Positions 36,449 through 54,252 of a stretch of 64,000 nt of DNA are shown here, one piece after another (position 1 is the stretch's first letter; each line of letters begins with the position of its first letter). Source of the stretch: Limihaloglobus sulfuriphilus (GTDB taxonomy: Bacteria > Planctomycetota > Phycisphaerae > Sedimentisphaerales > Sedimentisphaeraceae); assembly GCF_001999965.1 (NCBI RefSeq), contig NZ_CP019646.1:2976001-3040000 (forward strand), given 5' to 3'. Position numbers and translations under genes: made by a program. The notes beneath the pieces were generated by a model. The model was not told the origin of the DNA. It did not search any database and worked only from the letters and a program-made list of their open reading frames with translations.

Positions 36449-37987
36449 ATGAGATTCTTAAACCGGCGAGCATTCATCGAATCGGCAGGGTTGTTTTTAG
36501 GTTCTTCGTTTCTATCAGATAATGCTGCGGCTAAGTCTTTCTTAAATTCTGCTCTTGACCGGACGTCTGCTGCAAAACGTAATATTGTGTTTATCTTAAT
36601 TGATGATTTAAGATACGACTGTCTGGGTTTCATGGGGCATCCTTTCCTGAAGACGCCTAATATAGATAAGCTGGTGAAAAACGGGGCAAACTGCCGTAAC
36701 AGTTTTGTTACAACTTCGCTCTGTTCACCCAGCCGCGCATCAATACTGACAGGTCAGTACATGCACAATCATAAGGTTGTTGACAATAATGATATGATGC
36801 CGGCGGATGCTGTTACCTTTCCGCAATTGCTCAGAAGTAATGGATACAGGACAGCTTTTATCGGTAAATGGCACATGGGCAGCAGCAGCGATCAGCCCAG
36901 AGCCGGCTTTGATCACTGGGTCAGTTTTCGCGGGCAGGGCCAATATCTTCCTGAAGGCCAGACTCTTAATATAAATGGGACACGGGTGCCGAGAAAAAAA
37001 TACATGACAGAGGAGTTGACTGATCATGCGGTTAAATGGCTTGAGAACAGGAATGACAAAAAGCCGTTTTTTCTCTATTTGTCTCACAAAGCAATTCACG
37101 GCCCTTATGTTCCTGATAAACGGCATGAGGGTATGTACGCGGAAGAAGAATTCCCCGAGCCACAGACAATGGCAAACACAGAGGACAATTACAAAAATAA
37201 GCCCATGTGGCTGAAAAACCAGAGAAACAGCTGGCATGGTGTTGACTATCCTTATCATACACGTGAGCCTATATCCAAACAGTATAATAGATACTGTGAG
37301 ATGATTCTTTCGGTTGACCAGAGTGTCGGCCGAATTATGCAGGGCCTTAAGGAGAACGGATTTGACAAAAATACTCTTGTTGTTTTCATGGGTGATAACG
37401 GCCACTATTGGGGAGAACACGGCTTAATCGACAAACGAAGCGCATACGAGGAATCTATGCGAGTTCCCCTTTTTGCACATTGCCCCGAGCTTATCAGGCC
37501 CGGCACGGTAATAGAGGAAGTGGTCGCAAATATAGACATTGGGCCGACTCTATTGTCAGCGGCCGGCATTAAAGCACATCAGCAAATGGACGGCACAAGT
37601 TTTCTGCCTTTACTTAAAGGCGAAAAGATTTCAAACTGGCGGGATTTCCTGCTCTATGAATATTACTGGGAATATAATTTTCCGCATACGCCGACAACTT
37701 TTGCCTTGCGAACCGACCGATATAAACTTATACAATATCATGGTATCTGGGATATAGACGAACTTTATGATTTAAAGGCAGACCCCAATGAAAAAAACAA
37801 TCTTATCAACAATCCGGATTATCAGGAATTGATTAAAACGATGAGGGCCCAACTTCATGAAATTCTTAAGCGAGATAATGCAAATGTGATTCCGTTCGGA
37901 GAAAAGAAAGACCATGGCGCAAATTTGAGACACAGACAGGGTGCTGATCCTGCCGAATTTCCGCCTTTTATATTTCGAGAAAACTAA
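36449..37987 (+). CDS. sulfatase, Cys-type (type I)
   Basis: 512 residues. RRAFIESAGLFLGSSFL gives a Tat-like leader. The alkaline-phosphatase-type core starts with VFILIDDLRYD (Asp52, Asp53 as calcium ligands), and the active-site motif is CSPSR with Cys92, to be converted to formylglycine. Further motifs are FIGKWHMGS, MGDNGHYWGEHGL and the family C-terminal NEKNNL. It removes sulfate esters from glycans in periplasm or outside. A formylglycine-generating (anSME-type) enzyme is needed and is not in this window. First gene of a tight nine-gene run: the next gene starts 14 bp later. AGGAAA precedes the ATG. Confidence 0.95.
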   Translation: MRFLNRRAFIESAGLFLGSSFLSDNAAAKSFLNSALDRTSAAKRNIVFILIDDLRYDCLGFMGHPFLKTPNIDKLVKNGANCRNSFVTTSLCSPSRASILTGQYMHNHKVVDNNDMMPADAVTFPQLLRSNGYRTAFIGKWHMGSSSDQPRAGFDHWVSFRGQGQYLPEGQTLNINGTRVPRKKYMTEELTDHAVKWLENRNDKKPFFLYLSHKAIHGPYVPDKRHEGMYAEEEFPEPQTMANTEDNYKNKPMWLKNQRNSWHGVDYPYHTREPISKQYNRYCEMILSVDQSVGRIMQGLKENGFDKNTLVVFMGDNGHYWGEHGLIDKRSAYEESMRVPLFAHCPELIRPGTVIEEVVANIDIGPTLLSAAGIKAHQQMDGTSFLPLLKGEKISNWRDFLLYEYYWEYNFPHTPTTFALRTDRYKLIQYHGIWDIDELYDLKADPNEKNNLINNPDYQELIKTMRAQLHEILKRDNANVIPFGEKKDHGANLRHRQGADPAEFPPFIFREN

Positions 37988-38001
37988 TCAAAAAGGCAGA
38001 T

Positions 38002-41000
38002 ATGTTAAAATATTTAATAAAATTCTTAGTTACTTTGACGTTCTTAACTATAGCTGTTGAGCATATAGACGCAAAACCGATCAGCGGGGCTTTTATCCAG
38101 ATAAACCCGCACATGGCAGGCTACAGCCAGAGCGACTGGGAAGAAGAAGTCTCTCTGATGAAACAGTGCGGCATGGATACCGTCATTGTCTCGGCATCGA
38201 TAAGCGACGGCGGAAAGGCGCATTACCAGAGCTCGCTGGATTTCGTTACAGAGGTTGCAGATACCGCCCTGACTAAGATACTCACAGCCTGCGATGCTAA
38301 CCAGATGAAATGCTTCGTCGGGCTTGTCCACGATAACCGGTGGTGGTCGAGTATCGGCGATGAAGCAGTGCTATCTTCGATGGCGGCCAACAACATAGCC
38401 GCGGCAGATGAGCTTTTATCGGTTGCGGCGGAACACGCCAGTTTTGCCGGCTGGTACGTTACCGAGGAGATAGTTTTTAATGTATGGTCCGGCGATAACA
38501 GAGATATGCTGATCAACACCCTGCTCAATCCGGTTGTGGAGCATCTCAAATCCATCACTCCCGATAAGCCCGCGGCAACGGCTCCTTATGTATATGACAT
38601 AACCGCCGGTGCCGATAACTGCCGGCAGTGGTGGGACAATCTCTTGTCGCGGGTGGATTTTGATATTGTGATGTTTCAGGACGGTTTCGGGGCGGATATC
38701 AACAGAAAGCCCGAGCTGATTGTGCCGTATTTCAAAGGTCTCCGGCAGGCCTGCATCGATAACGGGGCAGAGCTGTGGAACGACCTTGAGGTATTCAATC
38801 AGCCCGACTGGACGGCCAAGACCTTCAGCGATGTCAGGTGGCAGATAAGCCTCAACGAAAAGCATGTCAGCAAGATTGTAACCTGGGAATGGTTTTATAT
38901 CACCCCGACACAGAGAATGAGAAGCGATGTGCGAACCGTTGACAGGCAGAACCTGTACGCCAAACTGCTGTCGCATAACAGGAACCTGAAAATAGCCTCG
39001 CTCAATAAGAACTACACGATGAGCAAACAGCCCTCTGCGAGCTACCCCGACAGTAAAAATAAGCTCACGGATTCACAGATAGATTTTGAAATGGACAGCC
39101 ATCTCGGCTATTATCTCACCTCCGGCTTCGGCGGCGGTACTTCAAGTGTATCCGTTACAATCGATCTGCGTGAGGACGTGCCGGCCGAGTACGGTTTTTC
39201 CGCTGTTTTTATGAACCGCCAGGGCTGGGGAGTAAACCTGCCGGAAAGTGTCGATGTTTATATTTCTGAGGATAACACCGCTTTTGAGAAAATCTCGCAG
39301 CTTGAGACTTTCCCCTCGGCGCAGGATTCGCTCAATGTGTATTTTGATTTTCCGCAAAAAATCATCTCGCCTCGATATGTGCGGTTTGAAATGCGGGGAC
39401 TGGGCTGGCTGATGTGCAGCGAGCTGAGCGTTTACAGGAGCGATATAAAGGGTGATTACAATTCCGACGCGCGTATTGATATAAACGATGTCAACACACT
39501 CAGCCAGAAGTGGCTGGATGGCGGTGATGAGGAGAAAGGCATAAATTACGGCGATTTTGCCGACATCGCAAGAAACTGGAAATGGCAGAGAGACCGCAGC
39601 CTGCATTTCAGAGACAAGTTCTACAAACTGCCCAACGTTCAGCTCTCACAGGGCTCGCCGTACATGCAGAACAGAACCGTTGAAAGTATTGCCTCCGAGC
39701 TGGCTGTCAACGGGGTTGAATCTATCTTCGTTATGCAGACTTCTGTAAACGGGCTCAAGCCCGGCTTAATCGATGCGCTGCGCAGCAGGGATATAGCCCC
39801 GGGGCTGATGCTCTTTGCCGATGCGGTATATACGCCGACCTCCGAGCTGCCCGAGGGCTGGGAGCAGTGGAAGATGGGCTTTCTAAACACCCCGGGCAAT
39901 AATCATTTATCATTTATCCATGACGGTTTTCGAGAGTGGATGAAGCAGCGGGCGGTAAGTCTGTGCAATGATAACGGTTTCGCGGCGGTAACATTTGCCG
40001 AACCGATGTATCCGGTTTACGACGGCATAACCAAATCGTCTGTGCGGTACGCCGATGTTTCGCAGGCGTATCAGGATATTTTTAAAGCCGACACGGGGGA
40101 GAGCGAGTTCCCCAATTTTACAGACCCCTCCGATCCGCACTATTTCAAGACGGATACGGCTCTTTATCAAAAACTCGTGCAGCACCGCATTGATTCGATA
40201 ACAGATTATTTTGATGAGATAATAAACGGTGAAGCGGGACTTAGAGAGTCCGCACCCGATACGATGGTTATAACCTGGTCTCTGGCGTGTTCCAAGCTGG
40301 AAAACGGCGGGGTTGATATTCTGCCCGAGTGGGAAGGCAACGACGCGTACAGCATTGTTAAAAACGCCAAGCCTGATATGCACTACTACCAGACGCACTG
40401 GCCGGACTGGGTTGATCCCCAGCTTTCGCCGGAGCATGTTTACAGCTACATTCCGAATTTCAGAGAGTGCTGGAAAGCCGCGCCGCAGGTAACGGTCGGC
40501 GTGCAGGACGATATCGGCAGCCACGACAACATGAGGCGAAGCAATGAGTATTATCAGAAATATCTCGAGGCCTGCGCCGCCGCCGGCGCGGTAAACTCCA
40601 CGTACTACTGTTTCTCGCTTCGCAGTGATGTATATAACTCCGCTCCGCAGCTAAAGAGAATCAGCCTCAACGACGGCTACGAGATGCCGGATATGGCCGT
40701 CTCGGCTCTGTCGGCGGAAGTTGACCAGAGGGCCGACGAAAACGGCAGACTGCTTCTGCGCATACATACAAAAGACAGTGACCCTGCAAACTGGCTTTTT
40801 ATCTCGGAAATTGAAATCAACGGCGTCTCCGGCGGGTTCACCTACAGCATCTCACCGCTGACGCCGCCGTATTCGGGCAGGCCCGACAATACCGGCAATG
40901 ACCTTGCCAACGGTGTGATAGCGGCGATGAACCTTTCAGATCCCGACTGGGTCGAATGGGCACCGGATGTCCAGGGCGCCGCTGCGTATGCTGATATTGT

Positions 41001-41418
41001 CCTGAATCTCGAGCCCGGAAGCCGGGTGGATTCTATCGATATATACTTCCTCAAATACGCCTCGACACACGTCTATCCCCCAGACCGCATTGAGCTTGGC
41101 ACAGGCTCTTATGACCTCTCTGTCAACAGCATAGACCTTGAGTTTGACCAGAGAGTGCACCCTAACAGCGCAGGGCTTATGATGACCAGAAACATCACCG
41201 ACAGTCTCGGCAATGTCTTCAAAGCGCAGAGAGCCTTCAGAGACGGAAATATGCTTATATTGGAAATGGACAGACAGGTCAAACGCGGCGATGTATTGTC
41301 GGTTGATATCGGCGGCATCAGCGATGATCCCGATTCCCGCTGGACAACGGCAAATATCGCACGGGGCAGCCTCAACACCGCGGCGGCAGGTACTGTAGTT
41401 ACCTTGACAGCGGAGTGA
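38002..41418 (+). CDS. secreted two-enzyme fusion: DUF4434-like barrel, dockerin-like linker, second putative glycosidase barrel
   Basis: 1138 residues with a signal peptide (about 1-24). Order: DUF4434-like barrel about 25-325 with the acidic set GWYVTEE (Glu155, Glu156), FQDG (Asp226), NDLE and TWEW (Glu296); a discoidin-like module about 350-470; a dockerin-like EF-hand pair about 472-530 (KGDYNSDARIDINDVNTLSQ); a second barrel about 535-880 homologous to the protein at 43746-45221 (TFAEPMYP, YYQTHWPDW, VGVQDDIGSHDN); a second discoidin-like module about 880-1025; and a C-terminal beta domain also found in that homologue. DUF4434 is a domain of unknown function related to glycoside hydrolases. 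The internal dockerin is unusual. Enzymatic activity is inferred from the conserved acids only. Confidence 0.8.
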   Translation: MLKYLIKFLVTLTFLTIAVEHIDAKPISGAFIQINPHMAGYSQSDWEEEVSLMKQCGMDTVIVSASISDGGKAHYQSSLDFVTEVADTALTKILTACDANQMKCFVGLVHDNRWWSSIGDEAVLSSMAANNIAAADELLSVAAEHASFAGWYVTEEIVFNVWSGDNRDMLINTLLNPVVEHLKSITPDKPAATAPYVYDITAGADNCRQWWDNLLSRVDFDIVMFQDGFGADINRKPELIVPYFKGLRQACIDNGAELWNDLEVFNQPDWTAKTFSDVRWQISLNEKHVSKIVTWEWFYITPTQRMRSDVRTVDRQNLYAKLLSHNRNLKIASLNKNYTMSKQPSASYPDSKNKLTDSQIDFEMDSHLGYYLTSGFGGGTSSVSVTIDLREDVPAEYGFSAVFMNRQGWGVNLPESVDVYISEDNTAFEKISQLETFPSAQDSLNVYFDFPQKIISPRYVRFEMRGLGWLMCSELSVYRSDIKGDYNSDARIDINDVNTLSQKWLDGGDEEKGINYGDFADIARNWKWQRDRSLHFRDKFYKLPNVQLSQGSPYMQNRTVESIASELAVNGVESIFVMQTSVNGLKPGLIDALRSRDIAPGLMLFADAVYTPTSELPEGWEQWKMGFLNTPGNNHLSFIHDGFREWMKQRAVSLCNDNGFAAVTFAEPMYPVYDGITKSSVRYADVSQAYQDIFKADTGESEFPNFTDPSDPHYFKTDTALYQKLVQHRIDSITDYFDEIINGEAGLRESAPDTMVITWSLACSKLENGGVDILPEWEGNDAYSIVKNAKPDMHYYQTHWPDWVDPQLSPEHVYSYIPNFRECWKAAPQVTVGVQDDIGSHDNMRRSNEYYQKYLEACAAAGAVNSTYYCFSLRSDVYNSAPQLKRISLNDGYEMPDMAVSALSAEVDQRADENGRLLLRIHTKDSDPANWLFISEIEINGVSGGFTYSISPLTPPYSGRPDNTGNDLANGVIAAMNLSDPDWVEWAPDVQGAAAYADIVLNLEPGSRVDSIDIYFLKYASTHVYPPDRIELGTGSYDLSVNSIDLEFDQRVHPNSAGLMMTRNITDSLGNVFKAQRAFRDGNMLILEMDRQVKRGDVLSVDIGGISDDPDSRWTTANIARGSLNTAAAGTVVTLTAE

Positions 41419-41484
41419 GAAAGAAGAAAATAATATTCCGGAAATAATAACTTATTATAATTATAATTTAAATAAAGGAAAACA

Positions 41485-42465
41485 ATGAGAATTACAGGTA
41501 CATTCATTGACGAAATAACGGTTGATATACCTTCGAACAACTGGAGTGCCCGGCACTGGGCTATGGATTTCAGGGCGATGAAGCATATCGGCATAGACAC
41601 AGTGATAATTATCCGTTCGGGCTACCAGAACAAGTGCATCTTCGACTCACAGGCACTGAAGAAACATGTGGGACTGATGATGCCGGTGTTTGAAGATCTC
41701 TTTGAGCTGTTTTTGTCTCTGGCTCAGGAAAACGATATGGATCTATATTTCGGAACTTATGATGATTATGAGATGCAGCACAGCGGCAATCATAAAAAAC
41801 TCATCCAGATAAACAAGGACTTCATAGACGAGGCATGGTCTCGCTACGGCTCGTACGACTCGTTTAAGGGCTGGTACGTCACACAGGAATTAGCGACAAA
41901 GGACGAGCACGGCGCTGAATGTATCAGAGACGTTGGCCTGCACTGCAAAAGCATAACCGGCCAGGATTTGCCGGTTTTGATATCCCCCTTTATCGCCGGC
42001 AGAAAACAGTTTGACAATCCGATTACTCTCGAGCAGCACGAAAATCAGTGGGACTATATGCTCTCTGTTATGCAGGGCGCGGTCGATATTGTGGCGTTTC
42101 AGGACGGAAATGTCGATTACCACGAGCTGCCCGAATACATCGCGGCAAACAAAAAGCTGCTTGATAAATACGGTATGCACTCCTGGAGCAACCTGGAAAC
42201 ATTTGACAGGGATATGCCGTATCTGCGGTTTCCCCCGACAGACTGGCGCAAGCTGTGGTGGAAGCTCGACGCGGCGGAAAAAACCGAAGTTGAGAAAATC
42301 ATCACCTTTGAGTTTTCATCGTTCATGAGCCCGTATTCATGCTGGCCCTCCGCGCATAACCTTTACGACCGGTACTGTGATTATTTCGGAATTGAAAGAC
42401 TGCAGCGCGAAGCTGAAAACGCCTCACAAAACAGACAATTTACAGCCTCCGGTGTTTCCGGTTAA
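41485..42465 (+). CDS. DUF4434-type barrel protein, cytoplasmic
   Basis: 326 residues without a signal peptide. It aligns with the N-terminal barrel of the preceding fusion protein: ITGTFIDEITVDIPSNNWSA at the start, GWYVTQE (Glu135), VAFQDG (Asp207), SNLETF (Glu238) and ITFEFSSF (Glu276). The four acids occupy the same positions as in the fusion, which suggests a shared mechanism. Its lack of a leader implies that it acts on imported oligosaccharide or sugar. It sits between the fusion gene (66 bp) and a UroD-like gene (31 bp). Family function has not been established to my knowledge. Confidence 0.8.
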   Translation: MRITGTFIDEITVDIPSNNWSARHWAMDFRAMKHIGIDTVIIIRSGYQNKCIFDSQALKKHVGLMMPVFEDLFELFLSLAQENDMDLYFGTYDDYEMQHSGNHKKLIQINKDFIDEAWSRYGSYDSFKGWYVTQELATKDEHGAECIRDVGLHCKSITGQDLPVLISPFIAGRKQFDNPITLEQHENQWDYMLSVMQGAVDIVAFQDGNVDYHELPEYIAANKKLLDKYGMHSWSNLETFDRDMPYLRFPPTDWRKLWWKLDAAEKTEVEKIITFEFSSFMSPYSCWPSAHNLYDRYCDYFGIERLQREAENASQNRQFTASGVSG

Positions 42466-42496
42466 CCGCCGCGGAAAATATCAGAAAATCCACTCT

Positions 42497-43699
42497 ATGA
42501 ACATTCAAAATAAGATAGAAAAATATTTGCAGCTCTGTTTGTCTAAGGCCAACAGGGACAAGCAGCGGCTATGGTCGGATTTTCTTGCGCTAAAGCCCTC
42601 GCGGCCGCTGGTAAATGTGTACTTCTACCAGTATGTCTGGCAGAGAGAGATCGATGACGGACGCAGAAACTATGACTGCCCGGTCGCTGATTTTATCGAT
42701 AAACAGATCAGCTACAGGCTCTGGCGGTGGGAAAACATCGATGATGATGCTCCGCTTGAAGAGTTTCTGCGGATTCCGTATGATATTCTGCACCATGCCA
42801 AACAGGTCAACCAGTACCAGAACAGTCTGTGGGGGATCGATATCGAGCTCAGCCAGAACTGTGACCAGGGCTCTTACAGTGTAGTGCCGCCGATAAAAAC
42901 GGAATCTGATATAGAAAAGATAACCCTTCCTCGGTTCGAGCCGCCTCAGGGCCTGGACGAGCTGCTGGAGAGGGCCGAGAGAATCACCGGAGGTTGTTTG
43001 CCGGTGAAGGTTGAAACCGAAAGGATGCACTGGGGCCCGTTCGAGTATATCGTATGGTTTCGCGGCATGGAAAATCTCTTCCTCGATTTTATCGACAACC
43101 CGCGGCTGGTGCACCGGCTGATGGAAATAGCCTCGGCTGGTATAATCCAGTGGCAGAGACAGCGGCAGGCTGCCGGTTTTATCGACAGCGAGCTTTCATT
43201 TTTCGGGCACGTTCCGTATGATGACTTTTGTCTGCATGGAGATTCTGCGAGTCTGAAAAGCTGCTGGGCATATCTGCACGCCCAGTCCAGCGGCACGATA
43301 TCGCCGCAGATGTACGAGGAATTTGTCCAGCCGTACAACGAACGGATCGCCGCACTTGTCGGGCGCGTGTATTATCACGGCTGCGAAAACCTCGACCGCA
43401 AAGCCGCCGTCATAAAGAGACTGCCTAACCTGAGGCTTTTTCACATTTCTCCCTGGTCTAACGTCGAGCCGATACTGGAAGAAATGGGCAGGGGCTTTGC
43501 CTACGAAGTTCACTCACACCCGACCGGCGTACTGAGCAGTTACAGCGATTCGGATATGAGCCGCGAACTCAGCTCGAGAAGCAGTATCGCCGCAGAGGTC
43601 AACCATGTATTGACACTGGCGGATGTCGAAACCGTAACCGGCAGACTTGAACGCGTCCGCGAATGGGTGCGGCTGGCTAACAAAACCGCCCGGGTTTGA
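42497..43699 (+). CDS. uroporphyrinogen decarboxylase-like protein (methyltransferase-type His-X-Cys)
   Basis: 400 residues from the ATG at 42497; earlier in-frame starts would overlap the previous gene. The fold signature is of the UroD/MtaA superfamily (for example PRLVHRLMEIASAGIIQWQR, then SASLKSCWAYLHAQSSGTIS, YYHGCENLD). His294-Gly-Cys296 sits where MtaA/MtbA-type methylcobamide:CoM methyltransferases bind zinc; a third ligand is not obvious, His residues at EVHSHP are candidates. The N-terminal Arg cluster of true HemE that binds uroporphyrinogen carboxylates is not evident. So heme synthesis is unlikely; demethylation or an unknown sugar reaction is more plausible given the locus. Another UroD-like gene lies at 47072-48214. 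Confidence 0.75.
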   Translation: MNIQNKIEKYLQLCLSKANRDKQRLWSDFLALKPSRPLVNVYFYQYVWQREIDDGRRNYDCPVADFIDKQISYRLWRWENIDDDAPLEEFLRIPYDILHHAKQVNQYQNSLWGIDIELSQNCDQGSYSVVPPIKTESDIEKITLPRFEPPQGLDELLERAERITGGCLPVKVETERMHWGPFEYIVWFRGMENLFLDFIDNPRLVHRLMEIASAGIIQWQRQRQAAGFIDSELSFFGHVPYDDFCLHGDSASLKSCWAYLHAQSSGTISPQMYEEFVQPYNERIAALVGRVYYHGCENLDRKAAVIKRLPNLRLFHISPWSNVEPILEEMGRGFAYEVHSHPTGVLSSYSDSDMSRELSSRSSIAAEVNHVLTLADVETVTGRLERVREWVRLANKTARV

Positions 43700-43745
43700 T
43701 TTATGTTTTATATTACTCTCATAAAAACTATAAAGGATTTACAAA

Positions 43746-45221
43746 ATGACAAAGCGTATAAAACTCACACCTCTGTTTGTCGTGTTTCTGTTTTTGGCTG
43801 TTTCCGGCCTGAACACTCTTTACGGCGGGGAGCTTGACCCGATGTCCGCAAAACTGCTCAGCGGCAAAACCGTGCAGGCCGATTTTGGATTCCCGCCTTA
43901 CAAAGACAGAAGCGCTTCGAGCATAGCCGAGGAGATCACCGCCAACGGTTATGACGGGGTGTATTACTTCGTATGCGCAGACAGCACCGTGAGAAAAGAT
44001 ATAATCGCCGAGCTGCAAAAGAGAGAAATTCCGGTAGCCGTGATGCTTATCGCCACCGGAGCGTACCTTCCGGCGAATGAGCGGCCCGAGGGCTGGGAAA
44101 AATGGAAAATGGAGTTTACCAGCGATGTGATGGACAGCTACCAGTTCATGTCGTTTGTCCACAAGGATTACGCGGAGTGGATGAAGCATCGCGTCGTCAG
44201 GCTGATCAATGACTGCGGGTTTGACGGGTTCACCTTCGCCGAGGCGATGTATCCAATCGCCGACGGGCTTGAACGAGAGAATGTTCTTTACGGCGACATC
44301 TCGCCGGCGTTTAGGCAGGCTTTCAAAAAAGATACCGGCAACTCCGTATTTCCCGAATTCGTGGACACGGCTAAAGCCAACTACTATAAAAAAATACCCG
44401 ATGTATATAACGATCTTGTTGAGTACAGGATCAAAACCGTCAATGACTTTTATGATGAAGTCGTCAACGGTCAGGGCGGCGTAAGGGAAAAATGCCCGGG
44501 CAAATTTGTTGCAACCTGGACACTTGGCATCAGTTTGCCGCAGGGCCTTGAAAAACTCCGCGAGTGGGAGGGCAACGATATACCGTCTATGATACGCAGG
44601 GTCAAACCGGATATGCATTTTATCCAGACTCACGCGCCTGACTGGACAAACCCGCAGCTCAAACCTGATTACCCCGGAACATATAAGCCTTTCTTCGATG
44701 CTGTAAAACAGACAGATCCGCAAATGCCGGTAGGTTTTCAGGCGGATTTCGTTTCACATGAAGATATTCGCCGCAGCCCGCAATGGGTAAAGCGGTTTTA
44801 TGAAGTTTGCGGCCGGATGGATATTGACAGCACAACATATTACGTATTCGGGCTGCGGTGGAATGTGTACCACGAACCGCCGCGGCTGTGCAGTGTCAAA
44901 CAAATCTGGAAAGATACTCTCGTTCTCTCTTTCGATCAGCGGATTTCAAAGGACTGTGAAAGAATAGTTGCCGGCAGAAAGATGATAACTGACGATAAGG
45001 GGACACAGTACAGCGTAAAAGATGCCGCGGTTGACGGCAGTCTGCTCAAACTTGTGCTGGACAAAGACATCTGCGGCGCAAAAGAAGCAAAGGTTCTGCT
45101 TGAAGGAATAAAGGACGATCCTGCATATAGATTTGAGAGGCAGGGACCCTGGCAGCCAATGCCCAAAGGAGAGACAAACGTCATAGAAAAGGGCGTGTGC
45201 CTGACACTGCCTGTTGAGTAA
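43746..45221 (+). CDS. secreted putative glycosidase, family homologous to the C-terminal half of the fusion protein
   Basis: 491 residues. A signal peptide (about 1-27) precedes a barrel domain: SIAEEITANGYDGVYYFVCA, RPEGWEKWKMEF, GFTFAEAMYPIADG with Glu166, FIQTHAPDWTNPQL, GFQADFVSHEDIRR and STTYYVFGLRW. These are matched in order in the fusion protein at 38002-41418. The C-terminal beta domain (about 385-491) is also shared. The TIM-barrel shape and the conserved Glu after the fourth strand suggest a glycoside hydrolase; I do not recognise a CAZy family. Two homologues in one operon, one secreted alone, one fused, suggest different stages of the same degradation. Confidence 0.7.
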   Translation: MTKRIKLTPLFVVFLFLAVSGLNTLYGGELDPMSAKLLSGKTVQADFGFPPYKDRSASSIAEEITANGYDGVYYFVCADSTVRKDIIAELQKREIPVAVMLIATGAYLPANERPEGWEKWKMEFTSDVMDSYQFMSFVHKDYAEWMKHRVVRLINDCGFDGFTFAEAMYPIADGLERENVLYGDISPAFRQAFKKDTGNSVFPEFVDTAKANYYKKIPDVYNDLVEYRIKTVNDFYDEVVNGQGGVREKCPGKFVATWTLGISLPQGLEKLREWEGNDIPSMIRRVKPDMHFIQTHAPDWTNPQLKPDYPGTYKPFFDAVKQTDPQMPVGFQADFVSHEDIRRSPQWVKRFYEVCGRMDIDSTTYYVFGLRWNVYHEPPRLCSVKQIWKDTLVLSFDQRISKDCERIVAGRKMITDDKGTQYSVKDAAVDGSLLKLVLDKDICGAKEAKVLLEGIKDDPAYRFERQGPWQPMPKGETNVIEKGVCLTLPVE

Positions 45222-45260
45222 GATTCACACAATACTAAGTCTATAAAGCAAAGCAGATTT

Positions 45261-47075
45261 ATGAGCAGTAATAATATGATTGACGCCGCGGTAGTGGCAT
45301 GTTACCTGATAATTACTTTCAGCGTCAGCGCGATGAGCGCGCGGTTTTTCAAAAAGAAACATGACTTTGTCAGTGAAGACGGCTACTTCCTCGCAGGCAG
45401 GAGAATGCCGGCATGGCTCAACGGGGTTTCACTGGCCGCGACGGCTCTCAACTCCAACGTAGGCCCGACCTACTGCGGCCTGGCGGTGGTGATCGGCTTG
45501 AGTGTCTGCTGGTACTATATGTCGCTTTTCAATTTTTCACTCTTGTTCGCCGCGTTTGTCTTCGCCGCGAAATGGCGGCAGATCGGCGTCTCGACAGGCC
45601 CGGAGATGGCAAAGCTGCGTTACGCCGGCAACAACGCCCGGGTCATACGAACATACGGCTCGGCCTCCATGATACTGCTGGTGATGGTGCCCTACATCGG
45701 CGTTGGCCTGCTCGGCGTACACGTTGTCATCAGTCCGATATTCAATTATGAAAGCCGCATAATAACGCTGGTGATTGTCCTGCCCGCTTTGCTGTTTTAT
45801 CTCTGGATCGCCGGTTATGCCGGTGTGGTCGTGGCGGATTTTATGCACACAGTCGTAATTGTGCTTGCAGGGGCTGCGCTTATGGTCTCCGTTCTGGTAA
45901 GGTTCGGCTCGCCCATGGCGCTGACGGAAAATATCCAAAGGGTACATTCCGAGAACTCCCCAGCGATACTGTCATTGTTCCCTTCCTGGGGCAATGAAGT
46001 TTTCAACCCGCTTATGATAGTTATATTTTTGCTGATCTACTCACTCGGCGCCGGCGGCAACATCGCCCTCGACGGCCAGAGGATACTCTCATGCAAAACT
46101 GCCAAAGAGGCAACAAAGGTCGGCATATGGGCATTAGGCGCTCTGTTTCTGATGCTGATGGCGATTACACTGCCGACAATCGGCTCACTGATCGATCATC
46201 CCGAATTTTTCAGCGCTTCTCCCTCGCAGCGCGAGCTGATATACGCTATCATGCTCAACGATTATCTGCCGGTGGGTATTCTGGGCATTGCGCTGGCCGC
46301 TATCTGCGCTTCGGCTATGAGTTCGGTTGACAGCATCCTGAGCTACTCTTCCCAGCTTATTGTAAATGACCTTGTACACCCGTTTAAAAAAGACCTCACC
46401 GAAAAACAGGGTATCTTTATCGGCCGAATCTCGATGTTTGTTATCATGGCTCTCTCGGTTATCATTGTGTTCTGGAGCAGCTCTCTCTTTGGCACTGTGC
46501 TGGTAGTAGCCGGTCTGCTGGCGCCGGCGGCGCTGCACGGCTGGGGGCAGTGGTGGTGGTGGCGGCCTAATGTGTACTCGTGGGCAACCGCGATCATCGG
46601 CGGGCCGATTGTATTTCTTTCTGTCGGCTTTTTCCTCAAAAAAATACCATGGTGGCAGCTCCAGCTCGACGCAGGCCCGGCAATGGTACAGCAGTTAGAT
46701 GCGCTGAAAATTGTTATCTCTATGGCGATCACTACGGTTTTGTGGGTGCTTGTGGCTCTTTTGACAAAGCCGGAAGATATGGAAGTTCTCAAGGATTTTT
46801 ACCGCAAGGCAAAACCAAACGGATTCTGGGGGCCTGTAAGAAAGGCGGTAGAGGCGGACGGCGATAACGTGGAAATAAGCAAATATGTCATACTCTCGGG
46901 TCTGCTGGCAGTGATCCCCGTCGCGGCATGGATAAACATGCTCGTCCTGGGATTGTCCGCCCTTTATGTCGGCAGTTATATCAAGGCCTCGCTGCTGCTG
47001 ATCGCGGCGGTTCCTACTGCTTTGATAGCGAAAAGAATTTATACATGGCACGTTGAAAGGCTCGGCGCGGAATGA
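45261..47075 (+). CDS. sodium:solute symporter, SSS (SLC5) family
   Basis: 604 residues with about 13 transmembrane segments. Family signatures: YFLAGRRMPAWLNGVSLAA near the N-terminus, the core GAGGNIALDGQRILSC, and AAICASAMSSVDSILSYSSQ near helix 8-9, which contains the Na+ site Ser residues. It should import a sugar or similar product of the extracellular degradation together with sodium. The stop overlaps the start of the next UroD-like gene by 4 bp (ATGA), linking transport to that enzyme. Substrate not predictable from sequence. Confidence 0.92.
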   Translation: MSSNNMIDAAVVACYLIITFSVSAMSARFFKKKHDFVSEDGYFLAGRRMPAWLNGVSLAATALNSNVGPTYCGLAVVIGLSVCWYYMSLFNFSLLFAAFVFAAKWRQIGVSTGPEMAKLRYAGNNARVIRTYGSASMILLVMVPYIGVGLLGVHVVISPIFNYESRIITLVIVLPALLFYLWIAGYAGVVVADFMHTVVIVLAGAALMVSVLVRFGSPMALTENIQRVHSENSPAILSLFPSWGNEVFNPLMIVIFLLIYSLGAGGNIALDGQRILSCKTAKEATKVGIWALGALFLMLMAITLPTIGSLIDHPEFFSASPSQRELIYAIMLNDYLPVGILGIALAAICASAMSSVDSILSYSSQLIVNDLVHPFKKDLTEKQGIFIGRISMFVIMALSVIIVFWSSSLFGTVLVVAGLLAPAALHGWGQWWWWRPNVYSWATAIIGGPIVFLSVGFFLKKIPWWQLQLDAGPAMVQQLDALKIVISMAITTVLWVLVALLTKPEDMEVLKDFYRKAKPNGFWGPVRKAVEADGDNVEISKYVILSGLLAVIPVAAWINMLVLGLSALYVGSYIKASLLLIAAVPTALIAKRIYTWHVERLGAE

Positions 47076-48214
47076 TCGATTTTGTAAAACACAACGAAGA
47101 AGCCCACAGGGTGTGGGACACTTATAAAAGCGGCAGCCCCATAAGGGTTCCGATGATACTCGGCATCAGCTCGAGGTTCTATCTGCTCGACAAAGATTAC
47201 AACAAAGAGGGGCTGAGCTACAAAGAGTATTTCGAAAACCCCCGAACGCTGATCGAGACACAGTGCCGCATATCGGATTTTCTGCGGCATAATGTACCCT
47301 GGGACACACCGATGGGATTGCCGGAAGATGGCTGGAGCATTATGGCGGATTTCCAGAACGTCTTTGACGCGGCGTGGTGCGGCGCAGAGATTATCTACCC
47401 CGAGAATCAGTGCCCGGATACCCGCCCGCTATTTAAAGATGATAAATACGCCCTGCTGGAAGCGTTTCCAAGAGGTGCTTTTGACGGGGTAATGGCAAAA
47501 GTAAAAGAGGTTCACCAGTGCTTTGAGCAGATGCAGGCGGAGGGATTTGAGCACAAAGGCCGGCCCCTCAAAGAGATTACAGGCACCCCCGGCACGATTA
47601 GCGACGGGGTATTCACCCTGCTCTGCCAGCTGCGGGGCAGCGAGAACGCATGTATCGACATGCTCTGCGATGAAGATTATTTTCACCAGGCAATGACACT
47701 TCTGACACAAAGCACGATAAACCGGATAACACAATGGCGAAAGTATCTCGGTCTGCCGCTCAAGACAGACGGCTTTGCACTGGCGGATGACTTTGTTCAG
47801 CTGCTCTGCGTCGAAGATTACCGGAAAAACGTCCTGCCGTATCACAAAAAGATTTATGATGCTTTCAGTTTCGGCTCGAACAATTTTATGCATCTCTGCG
47901 GCGATGCGACCAGGCATTTCCCTCTGATGGCCGCTGAGCTTGGCGTGAATCGCTTTGATACTGGTTTTCCAGTGGATTTTGACCGGCTCAGAGAGCAGCT
48001 CGGCAAAGACACAGAGATTATGGGCGGCCCGCATATAGAGCTGCTGCTCAACGGCACCAGAGAACAGGTAATCAGCCGGACAAAACAGATATTAAGCGGC
48101 AAGATTAAAAACGGCAGGTTTATCCTGCGAGAAGGCAACAACCTCGCCCCCGGGACGCCAATAAAAAATATTGAAGCCATGTACGAAACCTGTAAGATTC
48201 ACGGCAGATACTAA
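47072..48214 (+). CDS. uroporphyrinogen decarboxylase-like protein 2
   Basis: 380 residues of the UroD-like superfamily. Typical elements include DGWSIMADFQ, LTQSTINRITQWRKYLGLPL, GFALADDFVQLLCVEDYRKN and NFMHLCGDATRHFPLMAAEL. His274-Leu-Cys276 is the motif of cobamide-dependent methyltransferases, and MGGPHIELLL near the C-terminus could supply a further His. This is more typical of the family than the first UroD-like protein in this locus. It overlaps the symporter gene by 4 bp, so they are translated together. No corrinoid protein gene is visible in the window, so methyl transfer to cobamide remains a hypothesis. Confidence 0.8.
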   Translation: MIDFVKHNEEAHRVWDTYKSGSPIRVPMILGISSRFYLLDKDYNKEGLSYKEYFENPRTLIETQCRISDFLRHNVPWDTPMGLPEDGWSIMADFQNVFDAAWCGAEIIYPENQCPDTRPLFKDDKYALLEAFPRGAFDGVMAKVKEVHQCFEQMQAEGFEHKGRPLKEITGTPGTISDGVFTLLCQLRGSENACIDMLCDEDYFHQAMTLLTQSTINRITQWRKYLGLPLKTDGFALADDFVQLLCVEDYRKNVLPYHKKIYDAFSFGSNNFMHLCGDATRHFPLMAAELGVNRFDTGFPVDFDRLREQLGKDTEIMGGPHIELLLNGTREQVISRTKQILSGKIKNGRFILREGNNLAPGTPIKNIEAMYETCKIHGRY

Positions 48215-48241: not shown

Positions 48242-49815
48242 ATGGATAGAAGAAATTTTTTAAAGAACAGCGGTATGGCTGCCGCGGCTTTTGCGCTTTC
48301 AGGCTGTAATCAAAGCTCAAAAATCTTTTCCGGTTTAAAACGCAGCTCAAAACCTAATATCGTTTTTATATATGTTGACGACCAGGACAGGGCCGACCTT
48401 AGCTGTTACGGCGGCAATCTTCTGATGCCAAACATCGACAGTCTGACACAGGAGAGTATGCGGTTTGACAGGTTCTATGTATCATCTCCCGTCTGCACGC
48501 CAAGCAGGTTTTCCGCGTTAACCGGAAGATACGCCTGCAGGGGCGCGGAGATGCAGAAAATCTGGCCGGTGTTTACGGTGAGCAGAACACGATTGCCCAG
48601 GTGATGAAGAAAAACGGTTACAAAACCGGCATTGCGGGAAAATGGATGCAAGGCGTCAGTGACAAAGTCCAGATGATGGACGGCTCTCTCGATGCCCGGG
48701 ATCCTGATGTCGCAAAACGGGTAAAAGAAAATTACAAACACCTGCAGGAATCCGTGAAAAGCACGGGTTTTGATTATGCCGAGAGCCTTTATTATGTAAA
48801 TCCCGGTCAGTGGTGGAGTGATGCCCCGTTATACACTCCAAAAGAGCTTAGACATCACAATCAGGAATGGATTACTAAGGGAGCGATAGATTTTATCGAA
48901 CAATCAAAAGACGAGCCGTTCTTTCTTTATATGCCCACTACGATGGTGCATGATCCAATGGCCCATGACAGCATAAAGGCCGACCCGCAGGTTACGCAGG
49001 CAGGCTACCTGGACGAGGCTCCGGATGTTCAGCCGCCGCGGCACACGATTTTTGAAAGGCTCAAAGGCAGGGGTATTGACTTTGACAATATTAAACCTGA
49101 GCAGGAGATGCAGGCTCATTTTCTCTCCGGAACGCTCTGGCTTGATGACGGCATAGGCGCAGTGCTCGACAAACTGGACGAATTGGCTCTGGCGGATAAT
49201 ACCGTTGTCATATACGCCAGCGATAACGGAAGAAAAGCCAAGTTCTCAACCTATGATTCAGCGGCCAAGATGCCCTGCCTGATCAGATGGCCAGGGAAAA
49301 TAAAACCGGACAGCGTCTGCAATGAACTTGCCTCGAACATAGATTTCGCGCCTACGATATATGACATCTGCGGCATCACCCCGCCGTCGAATGCCGTGAT
49401 CGACGGCAAGAGCCTTTTGCCGGCTCTGACGGGAGGCCGCTATAAAAGGGATCATATTTTCATGGAGATAACGGTTGAAAGAGCTGTGGTAACTGATGAC
49501 CGGTTCAAATATATAGCCGTGCGCTATCCTCCTCAAATACGGGAAAAAGTTGACAAGGGCGAGTTGTATAACCATTGGTGTCAGCCGATGGAGTTCGGGG
49601 TGTGGGGGCATTCCTACAATGCCGAGCTGTATTACCCGTCGTATTTTGATGCCGACCAGCTCTACGACCTCAGCAAAGACCCTCACGAACAAAATAATCT
49701 TGCAGACAACCCTGACTATTCTGAAAAACTAACTCAGATGAAAAAAATTATGCGAATGTACAGCAGGAATCTGCCCCATCCCTTTGCGGAATTTAAAAAG
49801 AAAAATCAGTCATAA
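48242..49815 (+). pseudogene. sulfatase gene with a frameshift
   Basis: Two overlapping frames form one sulfatase. The first (48242-48604) has a Tat/lipoprotein leader (RRNFLKNSGMAAAAFALSGC) and the active-site CTPSR with Cys85, then loses the family pattern after GRYACRG. The second frame (open before 48601) continues GDAENLAGVYGEQNTIAQVM, KNGYKTGIAGKWMQG, and runs to the normal C-terminus at 49815 with VIYASDNGRKAKF. The shift lies near 48539-48550 at CAGGGGCGCGG. It could be a true mutation, a sequencing error in the GC-rich run, or a programmed slip. If restored, the protein is a full-length Cys-type sulfatase of about 525 residues. Confidence 0.8.
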
Positions 49816-52563: not shown

Positions 52564-53022
52564 TTAATCCCACACATATTCGGGATCAAAATCTACATTG
52601 TATCTTTTGAGAAAACTCAGATATTCCTGTTTAAAAGTGACCCGGGTGTGGTGCTGTTTCTGGGATTTTATGTACTCGATAGTTTTTTGCTTTTGGGAGC
52701 TGCTGACAGAAAATGCGCCGTAACCTCTCTGCCACTGGAACTTCGTTAAAATGCCGCCTTCGGCTTTGGTTTTGATCCATTTGCTGCTGTTCTTCTTGAT
52801 CTGTTCCAGACATTTGGAGAGCGACTCAGTCCGTGGCATACACATCAATATATGTATATGATCCGCGGTTCCGTTGATTATGAATGGAATCCCGTTGAGG
52901 TTGAAAATGATTTTACCTATATACGCGTATAACTCGTTTTCGATTGGCCCGTCAATGAACGGGTATCGCTCTTTTGTGCTGAATATTATATGAACGTATA
53001 TTTGTGCGATAGATTGCGGCAT
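52564..53022 (-). CDS. REP-associated tyrosine transposase (Y1_Tnp, IS200-like RAYT)
   Basis: 152 residues from ATG at 53022 (MPQSIAQIYVHIIFSTKERY). Y1-transposase motifs: strand VHIIFSTK, HUH-type HIHILMCMPR, a helix with LSKCLEQIKKNSSKWIKT, and WQRGYGAFSVS, where Tyr is the catalytic residue. The longer frame upstream (to 53100) reads through the target duplication into the ISAs1 inverted repeat and is not native. REP-like hairpin elements flank the gene (52395-52492 and, past the inserted IS, 54626-54669), fitting the RAYT/REP model, in which a domesticated Y1 transposase acts on REP hairpins. Its native promoter is probably displaced by the IS. Confidence 0.88.
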   Translation of the reverse strand: MPQSIAQIYVHIIFSTKERYPFIDGPIENELYAYIGKIIFNLNGIPFIINGTADHIHILMCMPRTESLSKCLEQIKKNSSKWIKTKAEGGILTKFQWQRGYGAFSVSSSQKQKTIEYIKSQKQHHTRVTFKQEYLSFLKRYNVDFDPEYVWD

Positions 53023-53100
53023 ATTTTGAATGTAATATATACAAACCGATATTACAACAAAAAAATGCACAAGGTTGTTTTGCATACAGGGCAATCGCAT

Positions 53101-54252
53101 CTAAAGTCCTTTATTTTGTTGTGTCAGCACGCGATATAGGTATTGCTCGTTCCAGCCGCAGCACAGCCTTCTGGTCTTTATGCCGACCTTGTGCTTGGTT
53201 TGCTGTTTTAGCAGATTCAGTGCTATTCGTGAGAGCCTTGCAAAATTTTCTGCTCCATAACCTTTTCTTATTCTCCTTTCATCGTCGGCAAAGCTGATAT
53301 CTAAACACCAGTGCAAGGAGTTCTCTACCCCCCAGTGGCCCCTGATATATTTGAGTAAATTTGGCGGATTTTTGCAAGTCAGGCTTGATATGTAATACCG
53401 TTTCTCTACGCTTGTTTCATCTCCTATGCTCCTCTTTGCCTCCACACATATCAGGCTCTTGAGCCCGACCCAGTTCTTCTTTTCAGAGTTAAGGAATCCT
53501 ACATTTGAAACAGCCCGCAATGTGCGTTCTTCAACCCTGCCGTGGCCTCCATCAGTTTCACTTGCAACAGTATATTGAATATTATAGACATTATCGTCTA
53601 TACATTCATCAAAAAGGGTAACTGCATTTTTATGCAGGCCGGTCTGATTTGCCTTTAGCTGCAAGATATAGTCCCCATCATTTTCAATTACAGCATTAGC
53701 AATTTCCTTTTGGCAGCCCATAGCATCAGTTGTTACAACTGCACCATCTAAATCAATTAACTCCAAGAGCTTAGGTATAGCCGTTATCTCATTGCTCTTG
53801 GTTTCTGTTGCAATCTGCCCAATGACCATTTTGTTGGTGTCGCACCAGGCATTTACCATGTGAACAGCCGCTTTTTCAGATGCATAATCAACGCTTCTAC
53901 GCATAGTCTTGCCGTCAATGGCTATGAGCCTGCCTTCACTCTTTTGGGCTAAGGCATTGACCCATTCGAGGAAGCATTGTTCAAATGAGTCGGGTTTGAG
54001 AGAAGAAAATACTCGTCCAAATGTGTCGTGAGAAGGAATGCCATTAGGCAAAGAAAGAAAACTTTTAAACCACTCTTCTTTGCACTGAGCGAACTCTTCA
54101 ACCTGTGTCCATCCATCAGCGCCACAAATTATTGCACAAATTGCAATGGATAAAATATCGCTAAGCTCATGCTTGCGAGTACGCTCGACTCTGGGGTCTT
54201 CAATTGTCGAAAAATAGTCCATTAATCTGCGTTGGTTTTGTTCTTTTTTCAT
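53101..54252 (-). CDS. ISAs1-family transposase
   Basis: 383 residues. N-terminal helix-rich part with EDPRVERTRKHELSDILSIA, the DDE core beginning at LIAIDGKTMRRSVD (first Asp), a second at GAVVTTDAMGCQKEIA, and the C-terminal RGHWGVENSLHWCLDISF with the final Glu, followed by RRIRKGYGAENFARL. The stop codon lies inside the left inverted repeat. It appears intact. Confidence 0.95.
   Translation of the reverse strand: MKKEQNQRRLMDYFSTIEDPRVERTRKHELSDILSIAICAIICGADGWTQVEEFAQCKEEWFKSFLSLPNGIPSHDTFGRVFSSLKPDSFEQCFLEWVNALAQKSEGRLIAIDGKTMRRSVDYASEKAAVHMVNAWCDTNKMVIGQIATETKSNEITAIPKLLELIDLDGAVVTTDAMGCQKEIANAVIENDGDYILQLKANQTGLHKNAVTLFDECIDDNVYNIQYTVASETDGGHGRVEERTLRAVSNVGFLNSEKKNWVGLKSLICVEAKRSIGDETSVEKRYYISSLTCKNPPNLLKYIRGHWGVENSLHWCLDISFADDERRIRKGYGAENFARLSRIALNLLKQQTKHKVGIKTRRLCCGWNEQYLYRVLTQQNKGL

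Follow-up and report, generated by a model that had tools for sequence, protein, structure and literature searches.

What two proteins of the uroporphyrinogen decarboxylase (URO-D) superfamily do among genes for glycan use is the question raised by a window of 64,000 nucleotides from Limihaloglobus sulfuriphilus (G000:C1:2976001-3040000 of a single-contig genome of 3.87 Mb). On the forward strand of this window, genes from 36449 to 48214 follow one another with intergenic gaps of at most 66 bases. The presumed operon starts with a sulfatase (PF00884 and SGSH_C; 36449-37987), followed by two DUF4434 proteins (1138 aa, 38002-41418, and 326 aa, 41485-42465), the first URO-D superfamily protein, U1 (42497-43699; open reading frame 42377/42497-43699), which belongs to a clade with the motif 'YYHGCE', a 491-aa protein that reaches the cut-off of no Pfam family (43746-45221), a sodium:solute symporter (SSF) of 604 aa (45261-47075), and the second URO-D superfamily protein, U2 (47072-48214). 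The start of U2 lies inside the symporter stop, with an overlap of 4 bases (ATGA at 47072-47075), in keeping with the coupling of the two genes proposed in the original prediction. The glycan setting described there is borne out as well: U1 and U2 are flanked by the sulfatase, the two DUF4434 genes, the symporter, and a second, frame-split sulfatase on the same strand (48242-49815, in two parts, 48242-48604 and 48601-49815).

The two frames of this second sulfatase overlap by four bases, reflecting either a true frameshift or a sequence error, and its first part (48242-48604) contains C-x-P-S-R, which we take to be the sulfatase active-site motif. Downstream of the locus, two reverse-strand ORFs (52564-54252) read by eye as a small transposase and an IS transposase. 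A locus from the window's own taxonomic order (L126) repeats the gene of the 1138-aa DUF4434 protein (62% identical), the SSF gene (50%), a URO-D gene and a U2 relative.

The reading that we prefer, with a probability of about one half, is that U1 and U2 are two different substrate methyltransferases (MT1) of a corrinoid system, for an imported methylated compound derived from glycan.

Motif conservation in U2 and U1

The motif H274-L-C276 attributed to U2 is present in the ORF 47072-48214 (codons of H274-L275-C276 at 47891-47899, forward strand); a second His-x-Cys string, H148-Q-C, is off the motif position and was rejected. We defined the U2 family by matches with an E-value of 1e-30 or better, which were found in 21 of 248 genomes of the same class (the window's own included). 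Within this family, H274, C276 and G277 are invariant, as are D78, D239 and D296 (22/22 rows), and N356 and N357 are each found in 20/22 rows. The U2 profile matches MtaA (4ay7, E = 2.1e-7) and CdmB (9rui, E = 1.4e-5). In the profile alignment, H274-L-C276-G is placed over 'HICG' of MtaA, and N356 (codon at 48137-48139, forward strand) over the Cys of the MtaA string 'PGCG', that is, over the third Cys of the His-Cys-Cys triad. CdmB likewise has Asn at this position, whereas it has no His-x-Cys at the place where U2 keeps it. By alignment, U2 pairs the His-x-Cys of MtaA/MtbA with the Asn of CdmB. Together with the O-demethylases MtvB, OdmB, VdmB and MtoB, CdmB is described as an MT1 of the URO-D superfamily, and as a methyltransferase without zinc (PMC13222342). 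The predicted model of U2 (mean pLDDT 66.7, with low confidence at residues 71-137 and 157-174) is of good quality in the C-terminal half alone, and this half was used; in it, H274 is the last residue of strand 271-274 and D296 that of strand 292-296, and N356 is located after strand 350-353. The invariant D296 (codon at 47957-47959, forward strand) is our candidate for a third metal ligand. In viral contigs, the U2 alignment had 14 pattern matches, none of them a relative.

The motif H294-G-C296 of U1 is likewise present when residues are numbered from the ATG at 42497 (codons of H294-G295-C296 at 43376-43384, forward strand); H294, however, is invariant only within the clade of U1 itself. 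Scanning GTDB species genomes with the A1 alignment, we found 577 relatives and kept the best 80, of which 23 have YYHGCE as in U1 and 57 have YGCCE. Among these best 80 of 577 and U1, H-x-C with H294 is found in all 24 rows of the histidine clade, and the sister clade has Gly-Cys-Cys, with Gly at 294, in 57/57 rows. Other positions differ between the clades in the same way: H316 is present in 24/24 rows of the histidine clade and position 316 is His in 0/57 of the sister clade, and position 264 is Ser or Thr in 24/24 rows of the former and Glu in 48/57 of the latter (best 80 of 577 and U1). H341 is found in 22 of the 23 histidine-clade rows that have a letter at that position (best 80 of 577 and U1), and position 339 is Arg or Lys in all 57 sister-clade rows (best 80 of 577). 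Across both clades, Y293, C296 and E297 are invariant (81/81 rows, best 80 of 577 and U1). The histidine and sister clades separate in the tree with SH-aLRT values of 98 and 95 (11 and 12 rows chosen, respectively). The motif residues of U1 thus change as a set between clades, as could be expected if a metal- or substrate-holding site had been rebuilt.

The predicted model of U1 is confident (pLDDT 93.8, pTM 0.92). In this model, strand 290-293 runs into H294-C296, H316 is located in strand 312-317, and H339 in strand 335-340. H316 (codon at 43442-43444, forward strand) is a candidate third metal ligand, and H341 (codon at 43517-43519, forward strand), just past strand 335-340, may be a further one. 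No conserved second Cys besides C296 was found in the U1 clade alignment. A profile search with U1 failed to reach MtaA, and U1 has the His and Cys of the motif (24/24 rows, best 80 of 577 and U1). The clade to which the U1 motif belongs is not that of the U2 motif and diverges further, and the two motifs differ in meaning.

Corrinoid partners in the genome and near relatives

The genome encodes 36 URO-D proteins (35 matches and U1), of which 24 have H-x-C at the aligned motif position. The motif is thus usual in the URO-D set of this genome and is no mark of the present locus. The 12 paralogs without H-x-C have H-S-H-G, H-S-D-G, H-T-D-G, D-S-D-G and other strings at this position (for example, G000:C1:1658513 and G000:C1:312181), and these variants possibly represent a range of metal sites within one genome. 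One paralog, a 569-aa URO-D protein (L046, G000:C1:1925682-1926665) with a C-terminal part that looks thioredoxin-like (CxxC), also carries the third of the MtaA Cys residues and clusters in the tree with URO-D proteins encoded beside corrinoid genes (L128, L276).

As to corrinoid proteins elsewhere in the genome, which the original prediction had called for, PF02607 matches two proteins. A complete corrinoid protein of the MtaC-like kind is encoded at C1:508.2 kb; the second match is probably regulatory and adjoins a protein that is sensor-like by eye. The MtaC-like gene adjoins two genes that read as sulfatases, and a hydantoinase/oxoprolinase-family gene is divergent from it (L035, 9118-11181). 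We further identified two RACo activases (PF14574) and an 815-aa protein that fuses MTHFR, DUF5981 and Pterin_bind. MttB methyltransferases, considered as alternative users of the corrinoid protein, are absent from the genome. The partners of MtvB/OdmB/CdmB-like systems (corrinoid protein, MT2 and activase) are thus encoded, but they are unlinked to U1 and U2, and no corrinoid, RACo or pterin gene was found in the stretches around the 36 own URO-D genes (30 loci), a result that counts against our preferred reading. With so few corrinoid proteins, none of them linked to URO-D genes, one carrier, or at most two, would have to serve all 36.

Relatives of U2 present a different picture. A corrinoid protein gene is found at 6 of 21 U2-family loci, compared to 0 of 20 control stretches taken from 14 of the same genomes (Fisher p = 0.02). 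At four of these loci (L120, L121, L122 and L125), the U2 relative is near corrinoid, MTHFR and pterin-methyltransferase (Pterin_bind) genes, and at the other two (L128 and L131), it is near corrinoid, URO-D and RACo genes. The six linked loci belong to only two lineages (families f10 and f21) and therefore represent few independent events, which weakens the case. Such neighbours (corrinoid protein, pterin methyltransferase or activase genes) liken U2 relatives to MtvB, OdmB, VdmB, MtoB and CdmB, among which CdmB is the one aligned here. The partner genes in the genome and the linkage of U2 relatives support the proposed role as a corrinoid methyltransferase. The L128 cluster, with its corrinoid and RACo genes, also encodes, by eye, phytanoyl-CoA-dioxygenase-like and AraC-type regulator proteins.

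Across the 248 genomes, URO-D and RACo occur together in 118, URO-D alone in 23, RACo alone in 6, and neither in 101 (kinship ignored). Several of the genomes with URO-D alone have a single high-scoring match, which is probably HemE. Eight URO-D matches were scored in 82 genomes, of which 79 have RACo (the exceptions being G058, G101 and G242); these class-wide copy numbers are lower bounds (at least 7 or at least 8 in many genomes). RACo is present in 20/21 genomes with U2 and 41/43 genomes with U1 (kinship ignored), and the genomes that lack it, one with U2 and two with U1, count against the preferred reading. In one genome (G036), a U1 relative occurs along with two matches to RACo, and PF01208 has no match at E = 0.001, indicating that some members of the U1 family escape the Pfam model.

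For U1, linkage to corrinoid genes is sparse, which makes its case weaker than that of U2. In genomes of the same class, 0 of 19 U1-family loci have a corrinoid, RACo or pterin gene, contrary to what the preferred reading would lead one to expect, and in the wider set (best 80 of 577), a partner gene was found at 1/23 histidine-clade and 2/57 sister-clade loci. A protein of the U1 clade is encoded near an acetyl-CoA synthase subunit (CdhD family) and RACo (L171); in the sister clade, the U1 relative of L199 shares one stretch with a corrinoid protein, RACo, a URO-D protein and DUF1638, and at L220 a corrinoid protein adjoins the U1 relative. Histidine-clade relatives of U1 are also found, by eye, beside heterodisulfide-reductase and hydrogenase subunits (L161, 1-2800, and L169, 863-5897).

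These observations bear on the alternative that U1, and perhaps U2, acts without corrinoid on a sugar acid or a comparable compound, as a lyase, isomerase or decarboxylase, possibly metal-assisted. The strong divergence of U1 (13.6 bits to the MtaA/CmuA model), the concerted motif change between its clades, the 12 of 36 paralogs without H-x-C and the lack of corrinoid linkage among same-class relatives are all consistent with such chemistry, whereas the presence of RACo in nearly all genomes with U1 and the proximity of sister-clade members to RACo or corrinoid genes at L199 and L220 argue against it. On balance, we consider this alternative unlikely.

Sugar setting and relation to known enzymes

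On their own strand, the 36 own URO-D genes have 82 different neighbours, which we compared to 80 control ORFs from the same genome. The neighbours include 8 SSF symporters (8/82) and 9 sulfatases (9/82), along with GH2, GH3, GH94, GH123, GH130, fucosidase and further transporter families. Among the 80 controls, there are 4 sulfatases, and SSF does not figure in the families with at least 2 members, so that the enrichment of SSF near URO-D genes has p = 0.007 for a control count of 0 and p = 0.03 for a count of 1. Sulfatases were not significantly enriched (9/82 vs. 4/80, p = 0.25), and their frequency among the controls counts against the preferred reading. In this genome, URO-D genes are thus marked by symporters to a greater degree than by sulfatases.

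Given these neighbours, and an operon in the window that is itself sugar-related (SSF, sulfatases, with several GH families near the other own URO-D genes), we think it unlikely that U1 and U2 are MT1 enzymes for a non-sugar donor, such as a methoxylated aromatic, methyl-sulfur compound or halomethane, that happens to enter via this operon. Such a donor would be in keeping with the aromatic methyl ethers, haloalkanes and methyl-sulfur compounds used by URO-D MT1s with substrates described in PMC13222342 and PMC10418091, and with the fact that some clusters with U2-family genes (L121, L128) lack obvious glycan genes.

Both proteins pass the gathering score of PF01208 (23.9 bits), U1 with 31.2 and U2 with 74.8 bits. 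The best NCBIfam matches of U2 are the mtaA_cmuA, MtbA and MtaA models, and the predicted models of both proteins have the URO-D fold, with Z = 19.8 for U2 and Z = 18.7 for U1 against MtaA (4ay7). The original prediction of an MtaA/MtbA-type zinc motif holds insofar as the H-x-C of U2 aligns with that of MtaA, and fails insofar as both proteins miss the cut-off of TIGR01463, the MtaA/CmuA family (235.4 bits, vs. 63.3 for U2 and 13.6 for U1), and U2 has Asn for the third Cys of the triad; membership of U1 and U2 in MtaA/MtbA was therefore rejected. CmuA, an MT1 of the MtaA/CmuA type with a corrinoid domain, belongs to the same superfamily and, like U1 and U2, lies outside HemE, but it sits on a long branch that is not grouped with U1 or U2, and neither of these has a corrinoid domain. 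MetE, whose zinc site is His-Cys-Glu-Cys, resembles the U1 and U2 models with Z of about 12 to 13 (about 12 for U1), and CdmB (9rui) is not among the fold matches listed for either model.

S-directed methyltransferases of the MtaA/MtbA kind, performing methylcobamide:thiol transfer, are suggested by the NCBIfam matches of U2 and by the alignment of its H-x-C with MtaA. The scores are, however, far under the cut-offs, and the replacement of the third Cys by Asn in 20/22 rows of the U2 family does not match S-methyltransferases, which are His-Cys-Cys according to PMC10418091, whereas O-type members of the superfamily have carboxylates or non-coordinating residues in place of one or both Cys; we regard S-directed transfer as very improbable. 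The type 1 mlp clusters described in the same paper likewise combine multiple URO-D paralogs with a corrinoid protein and an activase of the Ram/RACE type, but their proteins closely resemble MtaA and are linked to S/Se, whereas U1 and U2 are remote from MtaA and located in a glycan operon (PMC10418091).

A role in heme synthesis, suggested by the Pfam name URO-D and by UROD as the top-scoring solved fold of both models (for U1 the human protein, with Z = 21.6; for U2 Z = 23.6), is scarcely credible, as both proteins are among the 88 rows that split from the 10 HemE rows with 98% SH-aLRT, U2 reaches 21.2 bits against a HemE cut-off (TIGR01464) of 302.95, and U1 does not match that model at all, in agreement with the original prediction. 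No HemE over the cut-off was found in the genome, where the best of the 36 URO-D proteins scores 90.5 bits.

A possible route for methyl groups from glycans

Returning to two MT1 methyltransferases of a corrinoid system as the preferred reading, we infer the metal, the direction of transfer, the substrate, the activity and the pairing of partners as follows. The operon's DUF4434 proteins and sulfatases would release a product that carries methyl groups, probably O-linked, and the SSF symporter would import it. This compound would be bound by U2, and probably by U1, at the mouth of the URO-D barrel, beside a metal held by His-x-Cys and a third residue, which may be D296 in U2 and H316 in U1. 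The methyl group would then be handed to Co(I) of the corrinoid protein encoded elsewhere (C1:508.2 kb) and from there to tetrahydrofolate via the MTHFR/pterin-methyltransferase fusion protein, with MTHFR as the next step, and RACo would rescue oxidised corrinoid. Removal of methyl groups from sugars fits the operon context, with a methylated sugar as the presumed substrate.

More tentatively, and with doubt prevailing, the scheme in these PVC-type bacteria may be that of a hub with spokes: URO-D proteins by the dozen, every one belonging to another sugar or glycan operon, would send the methyl groups of O-methylated sugars via one shared corrinoid protein to tetrahydrofolate, and the clade of U1 would be one in which the metal site was rebuilt (His-x-Cys with a second and third His) where the sister clade has Gly-Cys-Cys.

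In a literature search, we found no paper that joins URO-D methyltransferases with polysaccharide use in Planctomycetes, and none on anaerobic corrinoid demethylation of methylated sugars among the papers of a broader search, judged by titles and abstract openings. For 6-O-methyl-D-galactose, PMC10033563 describes demethylation by a cytochrome P450, which is oxidative and yields formaldehyde; the presumed task, taking methyl groups off algal sugars, is the same, but the enzyme is an oxidative monooxygenase of another kind. If the hub scheme is true, the URO-D network would be an oxygen-free counterpart of this route. It would also explain why these polysaccharide degraders have tens of genes annotated as 'uroporphyrinogen decarboxylase', here in a genome without HemE, and a large misannotated family would gain a testable function. 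Within the U1 family, the switch between H-x-C...H and G-C-C represents a natural experiment on the active site.
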